Source: Apoderus coryli | Taxonomy: Eukaryota > Arthropoda > Insecta > Coleoptera > Attelabidae | Length of the DNA: 64,000 nt | Direction: 5' to 3' | Assembly (NCBI GenBank): GCA_911728435.2 | Contig: OU452210.1 | Coordinates: 4,650,001 to 4,714,000, forward strand | Shown here: in pieces, positions 10,470 through 46,412 of the stretch | Numbering within the stretch: position 1 is the first letter of the stretch | How the letters are laid out: every line of letters begins with the position of its first letter | Notes under the pieces: model-generated | Database searches by the model: none | Told to the model about the DNA's origin: nothing | What the model saw: the letters and a program-made list of their open reading frames with translations, nothing else | Program-made: the position numbers and the translations under genes

Positions 10470-10580
10470 AATCGCTGATGATAAGATGATGCATCTCGAA
10501 ACATGTCTCATGATTGTTATAGTTTGAACATATATATATAACATTTTGTGGAGTAGACGTCGTTTCATTTCCGTTAAAAA
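10470..10580 (+). ncRNA. Penelope-type terminus with hammerhead motif
   Basis: CTGATGA (10475-10481), a stem II of AGATG/CATCT closed by ATG, and GAAAC (10498-10502) are followed by the self-complementary ACATGT and the cleavage triplet GTC (10505-10507). Short palindromic stem III and long stem I are the pattern of minimal type I hammerheads known from Penelope-like element terminal repeats. About 45 nt downstream comes TTTTGTGGAGTAGACGT, a block shared with the other such loci in this window. Stem I pairing is imperfect (AATC/GATT). No Penelope reverse transcriptase is nearby. Confidence 0.65.
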
Positions 10581-12545: not shown

Positions 12546-12720
12546 GCAATGAAAAAACACACGTAGACTCCACAAATTTATTAAAAGAAAGTGTTCTTAA
12601 TTATAGGGACATGTTTCGGAGTTTCAACTCCATGATCAGCAGACGAAACTCTGAACCATGTCCATATAATTAAGAACACTTTTTTTTAATAAATTGGGAC
12701 GCGATGTGTGTTTTTTTATT
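12546..12720 (-). mobile_element. Inverted pair of Penelope-type termini with hammerhead
   Basis: Two roughly 75-bp arms are inverted copies of each other, from ATTTATTAAAAGAAAGTG outward to a GTGGAGTCTACGTGTG block on the minus strand (right arm degraded to GGGACGCGATGTGTG). On the minus strand the centre contains CTGATCA, a GGAGTT/AACTCC stem II, GAAAC and ATGTC (12640 to about 12609). This is a hammerhead layout with G8 changed to C, so catalysis is expected to be lost. The plus strand carries a more degraded partner (CATGATCAGC...CGAAAC). Tail-to-tail or inverted termini are common in Penelope-like insertions. Confidence 0.6.
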
Positions 12721-16657: not shown

Positions 16658-16671
16658 AAATAAATATTTGA
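16658..16671 (+). repeat. Putative target-site duplication, left
   Basis: AAATAAATATTTGA; the last four bases are also compatible with the inverted monomer end. Confidence 0.6.
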
Positions 16672-16954
16672 GAAAGAGATGTTTGTGGCGACACCTAGCG
16701 TGAACAGGCAATATGCCGGGTGAAACACAGTTCACTACGATGGCCGGACAAGAAGTAACAACTCCATTATATCCTATTGCCAACACTAGATGCGCCCGAA
16801 TCCCCTAGCAGGGAGGCTTTATTTAAGAATTGCTTGTTACATAAAGCAACAAGACTTTAAGTTATGTTGGAAATTTATTTCACACTACCATGCTTCCACC
16901 AGACGGCCGTTTCGTCGATCCACGACTCATCAGTGGTGATCGGCAGGCAGTGTG
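16668..16954 (-). repeat. Inverted partial retrozyme monomer
   Basis: The reverse complement of 287 of the 336 monomer bases, starting within stem I (CACACTGCC) and ending at CTTTCTCAA. It shares AACTTAAAG with forward copy 3, where copies 1 and 2 have AACCTAAAG. Confidence 0.85.
16864..16954 (-). ncRNA. Type I hammerhead ribozyme, inverted copy
   Basis: Minus strand: CTGATGA (16933-16927), stem II GTCG/CGAC, GAAAC, palindromic ACGGCCGT, cleavage triplet GTC (16904-16902). The proximal stem I and CACACT/AGTGTG are present, but the outer 5' arm of stem I was lost at the inversion junction. Confidence 0.85.
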
Positions 16955-17135
16955 CCTCCCTGCTAGGGGATTCGGGCGCATCTAGTGTTGGCAATAGGAT
17001 ATAATGGAGTTGTTACTTCTTGTCCGGCCATCGTAGTGAACTGTGTTTCACCCGGCATATTGCCTGTTCACGCTAGGTGTCGCCACAAACATCTCTTTCT
17101 CAATCAATTCTCGTGCTAGTATAAGCTCTTTGTAA

Positions 17136-17243
17136 ATGTTGGAAATTTAGGTCACACTGCCTGCCGATCACCACTGATGAGTCGTGGATCGACGAAACGG
17201 CCGTCTGGTGGAAGCATGGTAGTGTGAAATAAATTTCCAACAT
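17136..17243 (+). ncRNA. Type I hammerhead ribozyme, monomer 1
   Basis: CTGATGA at 17174-17180, stem II GTCG/CGAC with loop TGGAT, GAAAC, then self-complementary ACGGCCGT and cleavage triplet GTC, predicted cut after 17205. Stem I is long: CACCA/TGGTG next to the core, an internal loop, TCACACT/AGTGTGA, then a 14-bp outer helix of ATGTTGGAAATTTA with its exact complement ending at 17243. All invariant core bases are intact. The two-pair stem III around GGCC would be weak in a monomer, so a dimeric (double hammerhead) fold is expected. Confidence 0.93.
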
Positions 17244-17471
17244 AACCTAAAGTCTTGTTGCTTTATGTAACAAGCAATTCTTAAATAAAGCCTCCCTGCT
17301 AGGGGATTCGGGCGCATCTAGTGTTGGCAATAGGATATAATGGAGTTGTTACTTCTTGTCCGGCCATCGTAGTGAACTGTGTTTCACCCGGCATATTGCC
17401 TGTTCACGCTAGGTGTCGCCACAAACATCTCTTTCTCAATCAATTCTCGTGCTAGTATAAGCTCTTTGTAA

Positions 17472-17579
17472 ATGTTGGAAATTTAGGTCACACTGCCTGC
17501 CGATCACCACTGATGAGTCGTGGATCGACGAAACGGCCGTCTGGTGGAAGCATGGTAGTGTGAAATAAATTTCCAACAT
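17472..17579 (+). ncRNA. Type I hammerhead ribozyme, monomer 2
   Basis: Identical in core and stems to monomer 1, offset by exactly 336 bp; CTGATGA at 17510, predicted cut after 17541. Cleavage at monomers 1 and 2 would release a 336-nt unit spanning 17206-17541. Confidence 0.93.
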
Positions 17580-17807
17580 AACCTAAAGTCTTGTTGCTTT
17601 ATGTAACAAGCAATTCTTAAATAAAGCCTCCCTGCTAGGGGATTCGGGCGCATCTAGTGTTGGCAATAGGATATAATGGAGTTGTTACTTCTTGTCCGGC
17701 CATCGTAGTGAACTGTGTTTCACCCGGCATATTGCCTGTTCACGCTAGGTGTCGCCACAAACATCTCTTTCTCAATTAATTCTCGTGCTAGTATAAGCTC
17801 TTTGTAA

Positions 17808-17915
17808 ATGTTGGAAATTTAGGTCACACTGCCTGCCGATCACCACTGATGAGTCGTGGATCGACGAAACGGCCGTCAGGTGGAAGCATGGTAGTGTGAA
17901 ATAAATTTCCAACAT
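17808..17915 (+). ncRNA. Type I hammerhead ribozyme, monomer 3
   Basis: CTGATGA at 17846, predicted cut after 17877. It differs from the other copies at the first base after the cut (A at 17878 instead of T), which removes the 1.1-2.1 base pair of stem I; all core bases are kept. Confidence 0.9.
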
Positions 17916-17954
17916 AACTTAAAGTCTTGTTGCTTTATGTAACAAGCAATTCTT

Positions 17955-17968
17955 AAATAAATATTTGA
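17955..17968 (+). repeat. Putative target-site duplication, right
   Basis: AAATAAATATTTGA; the first seven bases are also compatible with the monomer end, where internal copies read AAATAAAG. Confidence 0.6.
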
Positions 17969-20850: not shown

Positions 20851-21070
20851 AGGCTATCAGTGCGTGGGACAAACGATAATGATCAATTGTTCTAACATGG
20901 AAATCGTCTAATAGCGGTCAATAAGCTTGATGTTTCTATTCTGCTTCTTTCCACCATAGATGAACGAAATACATTAATATTCGTAACCTTGGCAGGGAAC
21001 AACCCTACCCTCATAGATAAAAAAAAAAAAAACATCTCACTATTACCGCGTACAAATTTTATCCATGCCG

Positions 21071-21328
21071 TGTACATTCTGTCGCTCTCTGTCTTGTCCT
21101 ATCGAGTACAGCACGTGGTCGCTATCGAGCACATTACAGTGTTTTAATTTGTAGACAGGCTTTGCGCATCTATGTGGGTTTATCTATGCGTAAAGTAAAA
21201 ACATCCTAACAATTGGTGATGTAAAGTCCTGTTTCAATTCAAGGACCGTTCGTTGATTTTTAGGATAAAACAAAGATTAAAAAAGTTAAGGAGGTGATAA
21301 AATTATACGTAGGTATCAAACTATTCGG
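21071..21328 (+). repeat. Direct duplication, left copy (LTR-like)
   Basis: 258 bp starting TGTACATTCTGTCGCTC and ending ACTATTCGGGAT, virtually identical to 21722-21998 except for an 18-bp segment present only in the right copy. It is followed by TGGAATAAACCC, which starts with the TGG expected of a tRNA primer-binding site. Confidence 0.7.
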
Positions 21329-21434
21329 GATGGAATAAACCCATATTGTAAAGAATTCAGCGGCTCTTTAGGAGAGATTTATGAATGGACTGTAAACGGA
21401 TTGATCTTAAAACGGCACCTTTAAAGACTTACCC

Positions 21435-21485
21435 TGATCTACGACTCCTGCCGGTCTTCAGCTGGCCAGCACTTTCTTCCAGTAG
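21435..21485 (-). CDS. Candidate host exon (minus), weak
   Basis: Minus-strand frame reading LLEESAGQLKTGRSRRSG runs into a consensus donor GTAAGT at about 21432-21427. The stretch is GC-richer than its surroundings. The upstream acceptor (CTTTAAAG) lacks a pyrimidine tract, so the 5' boundary is uncertain. It lies between the two LTR-like copies, which complicates a host-gene reading. The product is unknown. Confidence 0.3.
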
Positions 21486-21721
21486 CTTTAAAGGCACTCA
21501 CTCACATAAAGTTCGATTAGAACGTTGCGGTATTTGATATATTTGCGATTGAACAATAATAAAGCGGTTGAAAAATATATATTTTTTGCGTAAAACTATC
21601 ACTACAGCGGTCAAGACGAATCTCTGTTGGTCAGTCGCGCACACACAGCACGGAGGGCTATCGTTAAAGGTGTATACGCGATAACATTTTATTAACAAAA
21701 AAAAAGCAAAAGCAAAAAAAG

Positions 21722-21998
21722 TGTACATTCTGTCGCTCTCTGTCTTGTCCTATCGAGTACAGCACGTGGTCGCTATCGAGCACATTACAGTGTTTTAATT
21801 TGTAGACAGGCTTTGCGCATCTATGTGGGTTTATCTATGCGTAAAGTAAAAACATCCTAACAATTGGTGATGTAAAGTCCTGTTTCAATTCAAGGACCGA
21901 GGAACCCCCACTATTAGTTCGTTGATTTTTAGGATAAAACAAAGATTAAAAAAGTTAAGGAGGTGATAAAATTATACGTAGGTATCAAACTATTCGGG
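21722..21998 (+). repeat. Direct duplication, right copy (LTR-like)
   Basis: 277-bp partner of 21071-21328, with an extra AGGAACCCCCACTATTAG after GGACCG. The purine-rich GCAAAAGCAAAAAAAG lies directly before its TG, in the place of a polypurine tract. No matching target duplication flanks the pair and the ends are not TG...CA, so a terminal-repeat miniature element, a local duplication or an assembly duplication all remain possible. Confidence 0.65.
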
Positions 21999-21999
21999 A

Positions 22000-23190
22000 T
22001 ATTTTATTTTTTAAAATATACATAATTCTCTATTGAATATAATAATTATAATTATCTTAGAGTAAACTTATTGAAAATACCAATCCAAATTCTATTTCTA
22101 TTAGGTAGTTTGCATTTAAGCACAGACAGATTTCAAAAATATTAACCATTGCGGTATAAAATAATAATAAATAAACTATCGATTTACTTTACGAACTAAT
22201 ATTCTCAAAATAGTCATACCAAATATTTAGTGTATTCTAATGGTAGGTATTCATATATACTTTGAGAACTCATATTCTCAATATAATCGTAATGTAATCA
22301 GATGCTATACTTTATTCTAAACCCTGTATGTTATGATTAAGTAACCAGTTTATTTAATTTAACTATACATTTTTATGGAATAAGTAGTAATTAAATACTC
22401 TTAAAATATGTATTCAAGCGTCCTAAAATTAAATAATCATTTGCTACATTCAAATTAATAACATTTAGAATTTCATAATCTACATTGAAATAGATATCTA
22501 CTTGGGGATATACAAATCTAACATTTGCATGAATTGAAATTTATCGAATTAAATCAAGCATTTTATTTTTTGAGTGCATTTTAGTTGATTCAGTACATTT
22601 TTTTATCCAAGCAATTTAATTTTGAATTGACTATCTGCAGGTTAAAAAAGCAATTGTACTAAAACTGCTATATCTGATTTCAGGTATTTATAAATGATGA
22701 ACTGAAATATTAAAGAAATCAACTTGTAAACCGCTGTCAAAATAAAAACACGAAAAAATTTGTTATGTCCAAAAAATAATTATAATAGAGTCTTTTTGTA
22801 CTATTCCAAGCTATTTAATATTTACGGCATGCTGTATTTACCAACCTAGACTTGGTATATTGTATAATAGGTATGTGATAAGTGATTTAATTTAAAAGTA
22901 TCCCCACTGTTTTTTCAACCTTTTAAAATGAATATAACATTTTAAAAATTCATCAATTTCAGTAATAATATATTTTATGGCCTCTATTTTAGTTTAAAAT
23001 TTATATTTTCTGGATGTAATAATAATAGATTTAAGTGCAATAATTCAGCATCGACCATGAATTTTGGCACACAATATAATTTTTTAGTTAGTAAGTAGGT
23101 ACATGAAAGTACATAAACCAACGGTGTATTATCTTCTGTTAACTTAGTTTTTGATAACAAGAAACTAAAATTGTGTCTGGATATAAAAAC
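22000..23190. other. AT-rich stretch, probably intron
   Basis: No gene or repeat recognised. If the minus-strand exons at 24.1 and 23.2 kb are real, this is downstream intron of the same gene. Confidence 0.35.
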
Positions 23191-36770: not shown

Positions 36771-36987
36771 TACAGTCGACACTGTTTATAGTGAAAAAGT
36801 CTGTAAAGTGCAATTTTTTCAAGACCTAGGATATTTTAATTAAATTTTATGTAAAAAATCTTTAAAATGAATAGCATTCTATATAATAAAATTTTTACCG
36901 GACTTATGTATAAATTTGAATACATTTATTGAGATCTTGGCCTTTTCGTGTTTCCCATTTACATTTTTATATCGCATTCTTTTGAAA

Positions 36988-37557
36988 ATGGTAAATGAAT
37001 TTTTGAGAACCGAGGTGGTGAGTCTTAGAGAACGAGTGACTGTTTTGGAGCGCGGGTATCGGACACCGAACATGGACCTTTCCACTGGTGAAGTCTTCTT
37101 TCAAGAATATCAAGATAGAGAATCCCGAAAGAAGAACATTATGCTCTTTGGTCAGCCCGAGGCCAATGAACGAGAGGATAACAATACTGTTACTGATCTT
37201 CTGCAAACAATTTGTCCAGAGTTCAATGATGCGATGATTCAACGTGTCACACGTCTTGGACGTGCAAGGACTGATGTCAATCAGCCAGATACTCCTAAAC
37301 CGCGTCCAATTCGAATTCAATTGCGTGATACGGACAATGTCAGGCTTATTCTGCGCCAGTCTCATAAGATTAAAGCAAATCAAAATTTTAAACATTTGTT
37401 TCTAGTTTCAGACAAAACCCCAAAACAGTTAGAATTGTATAGAAGTGTGAAACAAACTCTTAATGATCGTAGGAATACTGGTGAGAACGATATCAAGATA
37501 AAGTATATAAAGGGTATTCCCACTATCGTCACTAATGAGGAACGTGATTTAAACTAG
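36988..37557 (+). CDS. LINE ORF1 (5'-truncated), RNA-binding protein
   Basis: ORF1 proteins bind element RNA as chaperones in the ribonucleoprotein. This one is open from an ATG at 36988-36990 that lies in the duplicated target site, so start and first residues are chimeric. The frame is open further upstream into Tigger sequence to 36916. The first visible part, VNEFLRTEVVSLRERVTVLE, has heptad-like spacing expected of the coiled coil. It is followed by ESRKKNIMLFGQPEA and, later, RVTRLGRA and RPIRIQL, resembling the RRM-like domain of L1/CR1-type ORF1. It ends ...RDLN-TAG at 37555-37557. The usual N-terminal portion is missing. ORF2 follows in the -1 frame, overlapping the stop. Confidence 0.8.
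   Translation: MVNEFLRTEVVSLRERVTVLERGYRTPNMDLSTGEVFFQEYQDRESRKKNIMLFGQPEANEREDNNTVTDLLQTICPEFNDAMIQRVTRLGRARTDVNQPDTPKPRPIRIQLRDTDNVRLILRQSHKIKANQNFKHLFLVSDKTPKQLELYRSVKQTLNDRRNTGENDIKIKYIKGIPTIVTNEERDLN
37548..37554 (+). promoter_or_regulatory. Candidate -1 frameshift site TTTAAAC before ORF1 stop
   Basis: The heptamer T TTA AAC in the ORF1 frame is directly followed by the ORF1 stop TAG. It fits the X XXY YYZ slippery pattern. Slippage by -1 would enter the ORF2 frame, which is open from 37548 and has no ATG until residue 120 of the frame counted from 37563. No clear downstream pseudoknot was found by eye; a weak GTGTTT/AAACAC pairing (37559, 37622) is the only candidate. Confidence 0.6.
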
Positions 37558-40418
37558 CGTGTTTGTCTAACAGGTCCAACTTAAAAAGCATTAATATAAT
37601 TTATCAGAATGTTCGAGGGTTAAACACTAAAACTGATTGTTTTTACGAGTCGGTATGTGCGGGTGAGTTCCATGTAGTGGCGATAACTGAGACATGGATA
37701 CAGTCAAACATTTATTCTTCTGAACTATTTGGGGACCACTATGTGGTTCATCGAAAGGATCGGGATACACGGGCGCTAGACGTGAGTAGAGGTGGAGGAG
37801 TACTAATAGCGGTTAGGTCTGATGTCCAATCCAAGCAGATAGCGTTTTCCGAAGCTGTTCTCTTTCCACCTTCAATAGATGCTGTTGCTTGCAGAGTGTG
37901 GGTTTCTGATGTGTCTGTAATGATTTTTTGTGTGTATGTGCCGCCTGGCGCTACCTATGACCAGTATGTACAACTCTTTGAAAGTCTGGAGCTGTTGTAT
38001 TTTAAGCATGATGCCAAAGTAATAATAACAGGTGATTTTAATATTCATTACTATGATAAAAATTTTTATAATAATCCTAAGTTGGAGTTGGCTCATGGCT
38101 TCGCTTCTCTGTCTAATTTCCAGCAATTCAATAACATATTCAACAGCCACGGTAACATTTTAGACCTTGTATTATCCAATATATCTTGTAGTGTTGATGC
38201 ATGTATGCCACTGGTTAGTGAGGACGCATATCACCCACCTCTCCAAATCTCATTTGAGGCTCCTGTTGACACAAAGTTTAGAGATTTCGGATCAAGTAAG
38301 GATGTGGTAAAATATAATTTTCGAAAAGCCGATTTTATTCTTTTGTATGAACTTATCTCTAGTCAAGATTGGTCTTTCTTGGATGCGTTTACAAATGTGA
38401 ACGACGCTGTCACTGAATTCTATAACAAACTACGGCTACTTTTCAGCATGAGTGCTCCTCTGTTGAAGCCACGAGCTGGTACGTATTCATACCCATTTTG
38501 GTTTACCCGGGATTTGATAAGTGACATTAGAGAAAAATCAAAATGTTTCTCCAAATGTAAAATTAGTAAGTCCCAATACCACTTAAACAGATTTAAAACA
38601 TTAAGGAGGCAAATAAAAATAAAAATTAAAACCTGCTACAAGGAATACATTGGCAGAGTTCAGGAGACAATCAAGACTGACCCCAAAGAGCTATTTCGAT
38701 ACATACAAGGCAAGAAGCGTAGGTCGCGTATACCCGGAACATTAGTCGATGCGGAGGGGCAAGAGATATGTGACCCGCTTGACATACTTACGGCTTTTGC
38801 CACTTTCTTTCAGAGTGTTTACGTGGATTCAACTGGGGATGACTGTCTGGAGTCATTTGATGATGTGGACTTGATTTCGGTAGGTTCTTTAAGCGAGGAT
38901 GACATAATGATGGGACTGAAAAAACTGAAACCGAAGTTGACTGCGGGGGTGGATGACGTTCCGGCGTTTATAATCAGAGATTGTGCTTATGTTTTTGTGA
39001 AGCCTCTAAAAACTATTTTTAATCTTTCACTGGAATCTGGCGAGTTTCCAAAATTATGGAAGCTCGCAAGAATATGCCCAGTACATAAATCGGGTGATTT
39101 GGCCCATATTACGAACTATCGTCCTATCTCAATTCTCTCAAACTTTGCGAAGGTCTTTGAAACGGTATTGCATGAAAAGATCTTCAAACAAATTAAAAAT
39201 CGTATTATTCCTCAGCAGCACGGCTTTTTCCAGAATCGTTCTACTGTAACAAACATGGCCACTTTCTTACAAGACATATTTCCCGCTATAGCAGAGGGTT
39301 GCCAGGTCGACGCAATCTATACGGATTTTACTAAGGCCTTCGACAAGATGGATCACTCTATTCTTAAACATAAGATGCGCTGCATCGGTTTCCATGAAGA
39401 CCTGATCTCCTTTTTCTCATCTTATCTAAGTACTAGGCAACAGTATGTCGAGTACAACGGCTATCGTTCTGATTTATTCACGGCAACCAGTGGGGCACCC
39501 CAGGGGAGCAATTTGGCGCCTCTATTATTTTCCATATTTATAAATGATATTGGTTCTGATATTTCTAGCAATTATTTGCTGTTTGCTGATGATATGAAGT
39601 TGTATCGAATTATTTCCAATTCGGATGATTGTTCATGCTTGCAGAGAGATGCAAATCTTTTGCATCGTTGGTGTATGCAAAATAAACTATATCTGAATGT
39701 TAACAAATGCAAAACTATAACTTTCACTAGGCGTACTCATCCTATAGTGCATGACTACTGTATGAATGGAAGAATTTTAGATAGGTGTTCAGTGATTAGG
39801 GACCTTGGTGTTTTTGTCGACAGCGATTTAAATTTTAATCAGCATATCTCTGAAATTACTATGAATGCATTGAGAATGCTGGGTTTTATAATCAGATCCA
39901 CAAAAAATTTTACTAATACCAAATGTCTCTTAACTCTTTATAATTCTATGGTGCGCTCTAGGCTTGAGTATGCTTCTTTGGTCTGGTCGCCAATATATGA
40001 TATGCACATGAATAGAGTTGAGAGTGTTCAGAGAAAATTTTTGAAAGTCCTGGCATTTAGGATTGATGGCCGTTTTCCACCGCGCGGTCTAGATCACCAA
40101 CTTTTACTGGACCGATTTGACTTTTGGTCGCTTTCCAAACGTCGTATCTTTGCATCGCAGGTGTTTCTATTCAAATTAATTAATGGTATTTTGGACTGCC
40201 CGCGCTTGCTTCAGCAGATTCATTTTCATATCCCGTGCTATCGCTCCAGACATCCTAAACTATTTTATATACCTCAGTTTCGTACTAACTACGAATCGAG
40301 AACACCTTTATGGCGTGCCTGCAGTGATTTCAATTCTCTGGGAATTGAAAATATTAATTTTTTTGATGTGAAGATCGATACTCTTAAGCACGCTCTATCA
40401 CAACATCTGCGGTCTTAG
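37548..40418 (+). CDS. LINE ORF2: APE endonuclease and reverse transcriptase
   Basis: Nicks target DNA and primes reverse transcription of the element RNA. Numbering from codon 37563 (TTG, used as nominal start; 951 residues). Residues 11-230 are an APE-type endonuclease: NIIYQNVRG, ITETW (41-45), GDFN (157-160), NILDLVLSN, and DAYHPPL (221-227) with the catalytic His. Residues about 480-750 are the RT: NYRPISILSNFAKVFE, TDFTKAFD (587-594, first Asp), GAPQGSNLAPLLFSIFINDI (644-663) and LLFADDMKLY (672-681, active-site FADD). A conserved C-terminal domain with RDLGVF and LEYASLVWSP follows. No internal stop, so the enzyme could be active. No ATG begins the frame, and the heptamer upstream suggests expression as a -1 fusion with ORF1; reinitiation or a non-AUG start are alternatives. 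Confidence 0.92.
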   Translation, partial: FKLACLSNRSNLKSINIIYQNVRGLNTKTDCFYESVCAGEFHVVAITETWIQSNIYSSELFGDHYVVHRKDRDTRALDVSRGGGVLIAVRSDVQSKQIAFSEAVLFPPSIDAVACRVWVSDVSVMIFCVYVPPGATYDQYVQLFESLELLYFKHDAKVIITGDFNIHYYDKNFYNNPKLELAHGFASLSNFQQFNNIFNSHGNILDLVLSNISCSVDACMPLVSEDAYHPPLQISFEAPVDTKFRDFGSSKDVVKYNFRKADFILLYELISSQDWSFLDAFTNVNDAVTEFYNKLRLLFSMSAPLLKPRAGTYSYPFWFTRDLISDIREKSKCFSKCKISKSQYHLNRFKTLRRQIKIKIKTCYKEYIGRVQETIKTDPKELFRYIQGKKRRSRIPGTLVDAEGQEICDPLDILTAFATFFQSVYVDSTGDDCLESFDDVDLISVGSLSEDDIMMGLKKLKPKLTAGVDDVPAFIIRDCAYVFVKPLKTIFNLSLESGEFPKLWKLARICPVHKSGDLAHITNYRPISILSNFAKVFETVLHEKIFKQIKNRIIPQQHGFFQNRSTVTNMATFLQDIFPAIAEGCQVDAIYTDFTKAFDKMDHSILKHKMRCIGFHEDLISFFSSYLSTRQQYVEYNGYRSDLFTATSGAPQGSNLAPLLFSIFINDIGSDISSNYLLFADDMKLYRIISNSDDCSCLQRDANLLHRWCMQNKLYLNVNKCKTITFTRRTHPIVHDYCMNGRILDRCSVIRDLGVFVDSDLNFNQHISEITMNALRMLGFIIRSTKNFTNTKCLLTLYNSMVRSRLEYASLVWSPIYDMHMNRVESVQRKFLKVLAFRIDGRFPPRGLDHQLLLDRFDFWSLSKRRIFASQVFLFKLINGILDCPRLLQQIHFHIPCYRSRHPKLFYIPQFRTNYESRTPLWRACSDFNSLGIENINFFDVKIDTLKHALSQHLRS

Positions 40419-40673
40419 CTAATTGTTTTTATGGAGCTGTGTCTGTGTGCTGGTCATTGGTTGCGCTCGGTAATGATTCACAACTCACGTTGTGCATTTT
40501 ATGTTATTTCTTTCTTATAAATAGTATTAGAGAATATGTTTTATTATATATATATATTTATTTATTATGATCATTGTATAACTTGCTTTTGTATTATATC
40601 ATGTTTTGTCTTGTAATTGGGTTTTTCGACCTGTTAGACAATAAAGTGTATTTATTTATTTATTTATTTATTT
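40419..40673 (+). terminator. LINE 3' UTR with AATAAAG and (TTTA)n tail
   Basis: About 255 bp after the ORF2 stop: TTGTCTTGTAATTGGG, CCTGTTAGACAATAAAGTG, then tandem TTTA to 40673. The polyadenylation-like AATAAA and the four-base repeat are typical of elements that prime on a simple-repeat 3' end. Confidence 0.75.
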
Positions 40674-40804
40674 AAAATGTTCTTAACGCGTTCGTAACGC
40701 CTAATGGTAGGCAATAAAGCAGGTAGATTTCTGTGAGACACCTGGGGAATTCTTAACCCATTTTATAGTAAGTTCACTTGGTTTTTCTTTAAAAATCAAG
40801 TAAG

Positions 40805-46286: not shown

Positions 46287-46346
46287 TATTTTTATTTGTT
46301 AGGCTCCTACCCTTTGGCCTAAATCACATAGACACTTGACACTAGA

Positions 46347-46412
46347 TTTTGGACAAAACTTAGGCCCATTTTGGACAAAACTTAGATCCACTTTGGACAA
46401 AACTTAGACACT
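46347..46412 (+). repeat. Three tandem copies of a 22-bp unit
   Basis: The unit TTTTGGACAAAACTTAGG plus CCCA is repeated three times with slight changes (ATCCA, ACACT endings). Coding potential and function are not evident. Confidence 0.85.

Follow-up and report, generated by a model that had tools for sequence, protein, structure and literature searches.

Opposed arms and two fixed ends in a hammerhead retrozyme of Apoderus coryli: a candidate case of two-ended insertion from one RNA

Repeats of the metazoan non-LTR retrozyme kind, which carry hammerhead ribozymes (HHRs), have been described from insects and other invertebrates (PMC7229834, available text). How the retrozymes of animals return to DNA is stated as an open question there and in the accessible parts of a second study (PMC7229834; PMC7761336). 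The first, in its available text, leaves the priming open, the primer being either target DNA or a small RNA and the partner possibly a LINE or a Penelope-like element (PLE) (PMC7229834); according to the accessible part of the second, the repeats hold no conserved motif that would reveal the partner (PMC7761336). In Nematostella, LINE-like target-site duplications (TSDs) of 15 bp are reported in the available part of a further study (PMC4918200). In axolotl, a helix III of two pairs and a tetraloop has been likened to that of invertebrate HHRs, and in one axolotl family, which has a palindromic tetraloop, dimers cleave better (PMC7229834, available text). Among the possible partners, a Penelope-like protein with a preference for AT-rich DNA cuts both DNA strands and extends them; its predicted state is a dimer (PMC11167929).

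Here, we describe an element in a window of 64,000 nucleotides (positions 4650001-4714000 of contig 25, in a genome of 428,062,225 bases and 129 contigs) together with its relatives in the same genome. Between its 14-bp TSDs stand three 336-bp monomers in direct orientation and a partial one in inverted orientation; all four carry a type I HHR. An earlier note on this DNA had described most of this anatomy, and the description holds. TRF, run on the window, recovers the three head-to-tail monomers at 16954-17961 as a 336-bp unit present in 3.0 copies, with 99% matches; we number the unit from 16954 as position 1. TRF and monomer comparison place monomer M1 at 16954-17289, M2 at 17290-17625 and M3 at 17626-17961, all on the + strand. 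M1 and M2 are identical, and M3 differs from M1 at 3 of 336 positions, including the change T253A directly 3' of the cleavage site, which costs one stem I pair. The CTGATGA...GAAAC...GTC cores are present as claimed and end at 17205, 17541 and 17877 on the + strand and at 16902 on the − strand. They belong to the HHRs of M1 (17168-17211), M2 (17504-17547) and M3 (17840-17883, without the one stem I pair), for which cuts are predicted after the three + strand positions, and to the HHR of the antisense arm (16896-16939, − strand). The 14-bp outer stem I is likewise confirmed, its 5' strand in M1 (17136-17149, + strand) pairing with its 3' strand (17230-17243, + strand).

The inverted monomer, incidental to the earlier note, turned out to be the most informative part of the element. 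It lies at 16668-16954 on the − strand, as an arm of about 283-287 nt that is antisense to the unit from position 150 down to 1 and then from 336 down to 200, and it meets the sense arm at 16953-16955, a junction ambiguous by 1 nt (G16954). The ends given for the whole element, 16658 and 17968, are the exact outer edges of the 14-bp direct repeat AAATAAATATTTGA at 16658-16671 and 17955-17968; a shared 14-mer near both points occurred in none of up to 20,000 random pairs of window sites at equal distance, pairs near the element being skipped. The final 4 bases of the left TSD and the initial 7 bases of the right TSD (AAATAAA) match the element too, and such sharing of 7 nt and 4 nt at the element-target joints has a chance of 5.4e-4 and 0.018, respectively, in simulated joints. 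At the outer left end, where the antisense arm begins, stands TTCTCAA (16668-16674, − strand; unit 144-150), here called site A, and at the outer right end TTCTTAA (17950-17956, + strand; unit 325-331), called site B. The GC content of the unit is 44%, Pol III boxes sought in it gave one-mismatch matches only, and the absence of an ORF is borne out, with 50 codons as the longest open stretch of the circularised unit.

Each monomer had been credited with a complete type I HHR, and its core bases are indeed complete (CUGAUGA, GAAA and the GUC preceding the cut), though the Rfam scores fall under the curated cut-off of 34 bits, at which there is no match. At a relaxed threshold, Hammerhead_1 scores 32.3 bits for M1, M2 and the inverted arm and 27.4 bits for M3, with E values of 9.1e-6 and 3.8e-4 in a stretch of 1451 bases, or 4e-4 and 0.017 window-wide. 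A pattern scan of the window gave five HHR matches against 0.05 expected by chance, four of them inside the element; the fifth, at 10475, has no Rfam support and was dismissed. Helix III, as read from the sequence, consists of two pairs and a GGCC tetraloop within the palindrome ACGGCCGT. The 336-nt unit, folded as a circle as the earlier note had proposed, reaches a predicted -110.0 kcal/mol, compared with -80.1 (sd 4.7) for shuffled sequences (z -6.3), and none of 100 shuffles was as low. In the isolated ribozyme region, the predicted lowest-energy fold is inactive and lies about 8 kcal/mol below the hammerhead fold. The double (dimer) form of the HHR has -69.5 kcal/mol against twice -28.1 kcal/mol for the single form, but inactive folds are lower than either, and so these secondary-structure energies decide nothing between a monomeric and a dimeric HHR. 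Compared by sequence, the ribozyme core is conserved across copies: over 39 loci, the 13 core positions deviate from the window's unit in 10 of 3203 bases, compared with 1150 of 81998 for all positions together (Fisher p 3e-10). The scored loci hold 236 intact cores and 248 monomers that cover the ribozyme, a separate fragment (L141:795-1207) being included in the core count and not in the monomer count.

A 3-unit query against the window's own genome gave 1445 first-look candidates, of which 39, including the window's copy, were scored; the 38 further loci were taken with their flanks and all 39 were analysed. The 39 loci represent a grouping among the matches listed (152 reported), and their number equals that of the scored candidates. 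Owing to the 3-unit query and the scoring of 39 of 1445 candidates, short or one-armed copies are under-counted, and the set favours long, similar copies. Dispersed copies do exist, the 39 scored loci lying on 16 contigs. The earlier note had also raised the possibility of an ordinary satellite with long uninterrupted arrays; the 39 copies scored among the 1445 candidates are short, at 2.45 to 17.8 units with longest arms of 3498 nt (10.4 units), and most have TSDs, though long arrays may exist among the other candidates. With a type I HHR per unit, tandem units, TSDs, dispersed copies and no coding region, the reading as a retrozyme stands at the level of sequence, and the element is well supported as a non-autonomous metazoan non-LTR retrozyme, a known kind.

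Two pairs of loci lie in related surroundings, namely L157 and L161 in near-identical copies of a ~2.1-kb repeat and L141 and L142 in a diverged repeat, and the differences in orientation and inner junction between the members of a pair led us to count all four. Beside the full two-armed copy of L141 lies the fragment L141:795-1207, a sense piece from unit position 259 to 334 that ends at site B; it was excluded from the layout, TSD, arm and junction counts. The left and right flanks of the 17.8-unit copy (L166, contig C86) match each other at 96% over 600 bp, with the same orientation, which may place this copy inside a tandem repeat of ~600 bp.

The layout of the window's copy recurs throughout the set. 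An antisense arm followed by a sense arm is found in 33 of the 39 copies, the reverse order in none, and six copies are one-armed. When outer ends are binned as A (unit 140-156) or B (326 to 2), 31 of the 33 two-armed copies have one end of each kind, 16 with A on the left and 15 with B on the left, while neither A+A nor B+B occurs; the ends of these 31 copies fall at unit 141-155 for A and at 328-336 or 1 for B. If each end were chosen independently and equally between A and B, 31 mixed pairs out of 31 would have a probability of about 5e-10 by simple arithmetic. L135 and L139 depart from the mixed pattern: their right end is B, and their left end lies at neither site. The one-armed copies all have an A end (L146) or a B end (L132, L150, L158, L159 and L163). 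In total, 32 of 72 arm ends fall in bin A, 38 in bin B and two elsewhere; 22 of the 32 A ends are at 149-151 and 37 of the 38 B ends at 328-336. The end core sequences are not universal: 24 of the 32 A ends have TTGAGA, and 31 of the 38 B ends have TAAGAA. Within the unit, the motif TTCTYAA is confined to two places, with starts at 144 and 325 and ends at 150 and 331, which correspond to sites A and B. In the predicted circular fold, the probability of being unpaired is 0.93 for site A and 0.79 for site B, compared to a mean of 0.40, and the 11-nt windows at A and B rank 6 and 21 of 336 for unpairedness. Between A and B lies the long hammerhead hairpin (outer stem 183-290), with ~33 nt to either motif by simple arithmetic. 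The exactly 3.0 direct units of the window had hinted at whole-unit arms, with reverse transcription halting at the primer; this reading was rejected because the phases of the right arms scatter in other copies, these arms in general not being whole units (fraction 0.0 in 2 of 33, the remainder scattered).

The inner junctions vary from one copy to the next. All junction pairs differ among the 33 two-armed copies, with an overlap of 0-3 nt in 22 and short insertions or longer overlaps in the remaining ones. In 7 of the 33, the two arms stop at unit positions no more than 12 nt apart, against 2.5 expected (p 0.01), the offset being exactly 10 nt in L134, L139, L140 and L147; a collision of two enzymes or a snap-back could produce such near-coincident ends. 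The majority sequences of the two arms are identical at 22 of 31 comparable loci, the arm overlap being too small at the other two, and the median difference between loci is 1.5%. At 27 of the 31, no other locus is closer than the own arm, with ties common; at the exceptions, sense arms of other loci are closer to the antisense arm (four for the window, seven for L134, four for L154 and one for L160). Of the rare variants of the antisense arm, 19 recur in the sense arm and 11 do not. Minority variants within copies, counted at positions with at least four monomers of one copy, are private to one monomer in 83 cases and recur in seven, of which the diverged copy L134 accounts for five and L158 and the window for one each. 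The near-identity of the arms and the mostly private variants argue that most copies were made from one sequence, for which a circle read for several laps would be the simplest template. The window's own copy is less clean than some others: at unit position 294 the inverted arm and M3 have T whereas M1 and M2 have C, so that one unaltered circle offers no simple explanation for this copy.

Exact TSDs of at least 12 bp flank 30 of the 39 copies (15 of 12 bp, 5 of 13, 7 of 14, 2 of 15 and 1 of 16, of which the lengths above 12 may contain target-element matches). Three of the other nine copies have duplications of 8-9 bp, and for six none of these lengths was found. The A+T content of the 30 TSDs is 0.87, compared with 0.68 for the window. 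L157 and L161 share their position in two repeat copies with flanks of 1480 and 617 bp that are 99.6-99.8% identical, and have opposite orientation and different inner junctions. L141 and L142 have a common insertion place within a nucleotide or two, again with opposite orientation and differing inner junctions, in a repeat that has diverged to 84% over 222 bp and 79% over 206 bp. Paired sites filled in opposite orientation suggest an endonuclease with a target-site preference, and that A or B may be used on either strand.

The copies demonstrate the layout, its fixed ends, the variable inner junctions and the TSDs, and, in most of them, the near-identity of monomers and arms. We consider it likely that they arise by a dual start, in which each 3' end of a staggered break serves as a primer for reverse transcription, the two starting at different fixed sites of one retrozyme RNA. 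Transcripts would self-cleave at their HHRs, as judged from the family, into 336-nt RNAs that would be ligated into circles. A partner protein, most likely a Penelope-type dimeric reverse transcriptase-endonuclease, would bind the retrozyme RNA and break AT-rich DNA so that 3' ends remain, the two cuts being staggered by about 12 nt. Both 3' ends would be extended on the same RNA, one from TTCTCAA (site A, unit about 150) and the second from TTCTTAA (site B, unit about 331). The two cDNAs would travel in one direction around the RNA, in many cases completing several laps, before halting at variable points. End-joining would then unite the cDNA ends and leave an antisense arm and a sense arm between the TSDs. 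We infer the circularity of the template, the simultaneity of the two extensions and the identity of the enzyme, for which a Penelope-like partner is the leading candidate.

On a more specific form of the dual start, a concerted two-ended insertion, our judgement is evenly balanced. Here, a pseudo-symmetric RT dimer would sit on one circular RNA at the two UUCUYAA sites, ~33 nt either side of the hammerhead hairpin, with one site for each 3' end of the ~12-nt staggered cut, and the two cDNAs would chase each other round the circle until joined. If this is true, the concerted reaction makes the mirror-image layout the product itself and not an accident. Two-ended, two-site insertion, which would be new in mechanism, has the support of the repeated anatomy in one genome. 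Among the titles and abstract openings listed in the open-licence literature we found no published description of the two-armed layout of HHR repeats, which may still be published, and nothing that combines twin priming with a hammerhead. The 39 copies yield a candidate start motif, two fixed start positions, the use of both strands and a TSD length; these are predictions for a purified enzyme and for other animals, and offer a route to pairing a retrozyme with its partner element.

Keeping the dual start otherwise intact, the template may have been a linear multimeric transcript in place of a circle, which we regard as possible though doubtful. In a PLE assay, most of the substrate was RNA that had not been processed, and the hammerhead did not need to cleave (PMC11167929), and multimeric RNAs occur in axolotl (PMC7229834, available text); the pattern at position 294 in the window also favours such a template, and the transcript of a homogeneous donor array would yield homogeneous copies as well. 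However, a linear multimer should be cut, since most monomers have an intact core (236 cores and 248 monomers), and arms nevertheless reach 3498 nt; moreover, variants that recur among the monomers of one copy are few (7, compared with 83 private ones). A single primer at the target, with occasional LINE-style twin priming in which the second primer anneals at any microhomology, is an unlikely origin of the arms. It would account for the one-armed copies (6 of 39) and agrees with the 7 nt and 4 nt that the target ends share with the element at the window's outer joints and with the LINE in the window that encodes endonuclease and reverse transcriptase. Random second priming, however, should scatter the second ends, whereas in 31 of 33 two-armed copies the second outer end is at A or B, always at the site unused by the first, and this fixed second site largely refutes twin priming; the LINE of the window, with a terminal TATT repeat and a possible 9-bp duplication, is also unlike the retrozyme.

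A spread at the DNA level would proceed through a transposon with ends A and B or the insertion of extrachromosomal circular satellite DNA. In its favour, a pair of distinct fixed ends and TSDs of fairly constant length also occur in DNA transposons, and the window has exactly 3.0 direct units. We hold such a spread to be very improbable in view of the inversion point that each of the 33 two-armed copies has for itself, the right arms that generally are not whole units, and ends that, as far as compared, have just a 7-nt motif in common. Capture of cDNA from a viroid-like RNA replicon is scarcely credible: the strong self-pairing of the circle (z -6.3) speaks for it, but the unit has no minus-strand ribozyme, the sole minus-strand Rfam match being the inverted arm, and 39 chromosomal copies were examined, most of them with TSDs. 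The HHR pattern of the element had no match in viral contigs or prokaryote genome contigs, and neither a looser one-type HHR pattern nor a 25-base stretch of the unit matched viral contigs. A still looser HHR pattern hit at least 120 viral-contig loci, with similarity to the unit in the HHR core (best E 0.013 among the matches listed) and, outside the core, one 19-nt match (E 0.57 among the matches listed); among the matches listed, no viral locus that has at least two motifs on one strand forms a tandem array. Against phages and plasmids, blastn gave short weak matches only (E 0.03 to 0.4). The dual start, which we prefer, faces points of its own: the predicted lowest-energy fold, about 8 kcal/mol below the hammerhead fold, would block the ribozyme, the rare-variant test is less clear (19 shared, 11 not), L135 and L139 have no A end, and 9 of 39 copies have no 12-bp TSD.

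Pfam searches of 36 window ORFs, from 95 stop-to-stop ORFs of at least 68 aa, matched the LINE only, apart from two weak below-cut-off matches; as 36 of the 95 were covered, a PLE remnant may exist in the window. The LINE-type element spans 36861-40679. Its first ORF occupies 36871-37557 and its second, which encodes endonuclease and RVT_1, 37548-40418; the TATT tail lies at 40649-40674, and either end carries what may be a 9-bp duplication, TTTAAAATG. The window also contains two direct copies at 21070-22000, whose identical 179- and 84-bp parts are 651 and 669 bp apart, so that the two copies differ by an 18-bp insertion; a MITE-like inverted repeat at 12575-12695 (51-bp arms, 92% complementary, 19-bp spacer); and a tandem repeat at 46346-46409 (22-bp unit, 2.9 copies).

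Among known systems, LINE-1 twin priming also produces an inverted part, a TSD and microhomology at the joints, with a variable second priming site that contrasts with the fixed one here. Satellite DNA forms long uninterrupted arrays, whereas the scored loci are short two-armed arrays, most with TSDs, and symmetric rolling-circle viroid-like RNA has ribozymes on both strands, whereas the minus strand of the unit has none. PLEs encode a reverse transcriptase with GIY-YIG, so that the 336-bp unit, having no ORF, is not itself a Penelope-like element. The W-elements of Schistosoma share type I HHR repeats, a TSD-like duplication of one element and putative mobility, but their inverted repeats are internal and flank miRNA and snoRNA-like parts, and two-armed arrays are not described in the available part of the source (PMC8490949). 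The HHR repeats of newt and axolotl are alike in length (330-350 bp), in a weak helix III with tetraloop and, putatively, in dimer cleavage, and differ in the 126,247 motifs of axolotl and in the arms, which the available text does not describe (PMC7229834). With the metazoan non-LTR retrozymes of the same study, the element has in common the type I HHR, tandem units of 150-450 bp, a GC content below 50%, TSDs of more than 4 bp, the absence of LTRs, a short helix III (two pairs and a tetraloop) and a stable fold, while the head-to-head arms, the two fixed start sites and the start motif are not described in its available text (PMC7229834). The Penelope-like element PAc of Anolis has an HHR of a minimal variant, two start sites 30-40 nt apart that are the same for both strands, compared with the strand-separate A and B here, and initiation in an AC-rich stem-loop that is not homologous to the target; it shares with our element AT-rich targets, tandem copies and a type I HHR and, on the dual-start reading, the internal start of reverse transcription, the presence of two start sites and the cutting and extension of both strands (PMC11167929).
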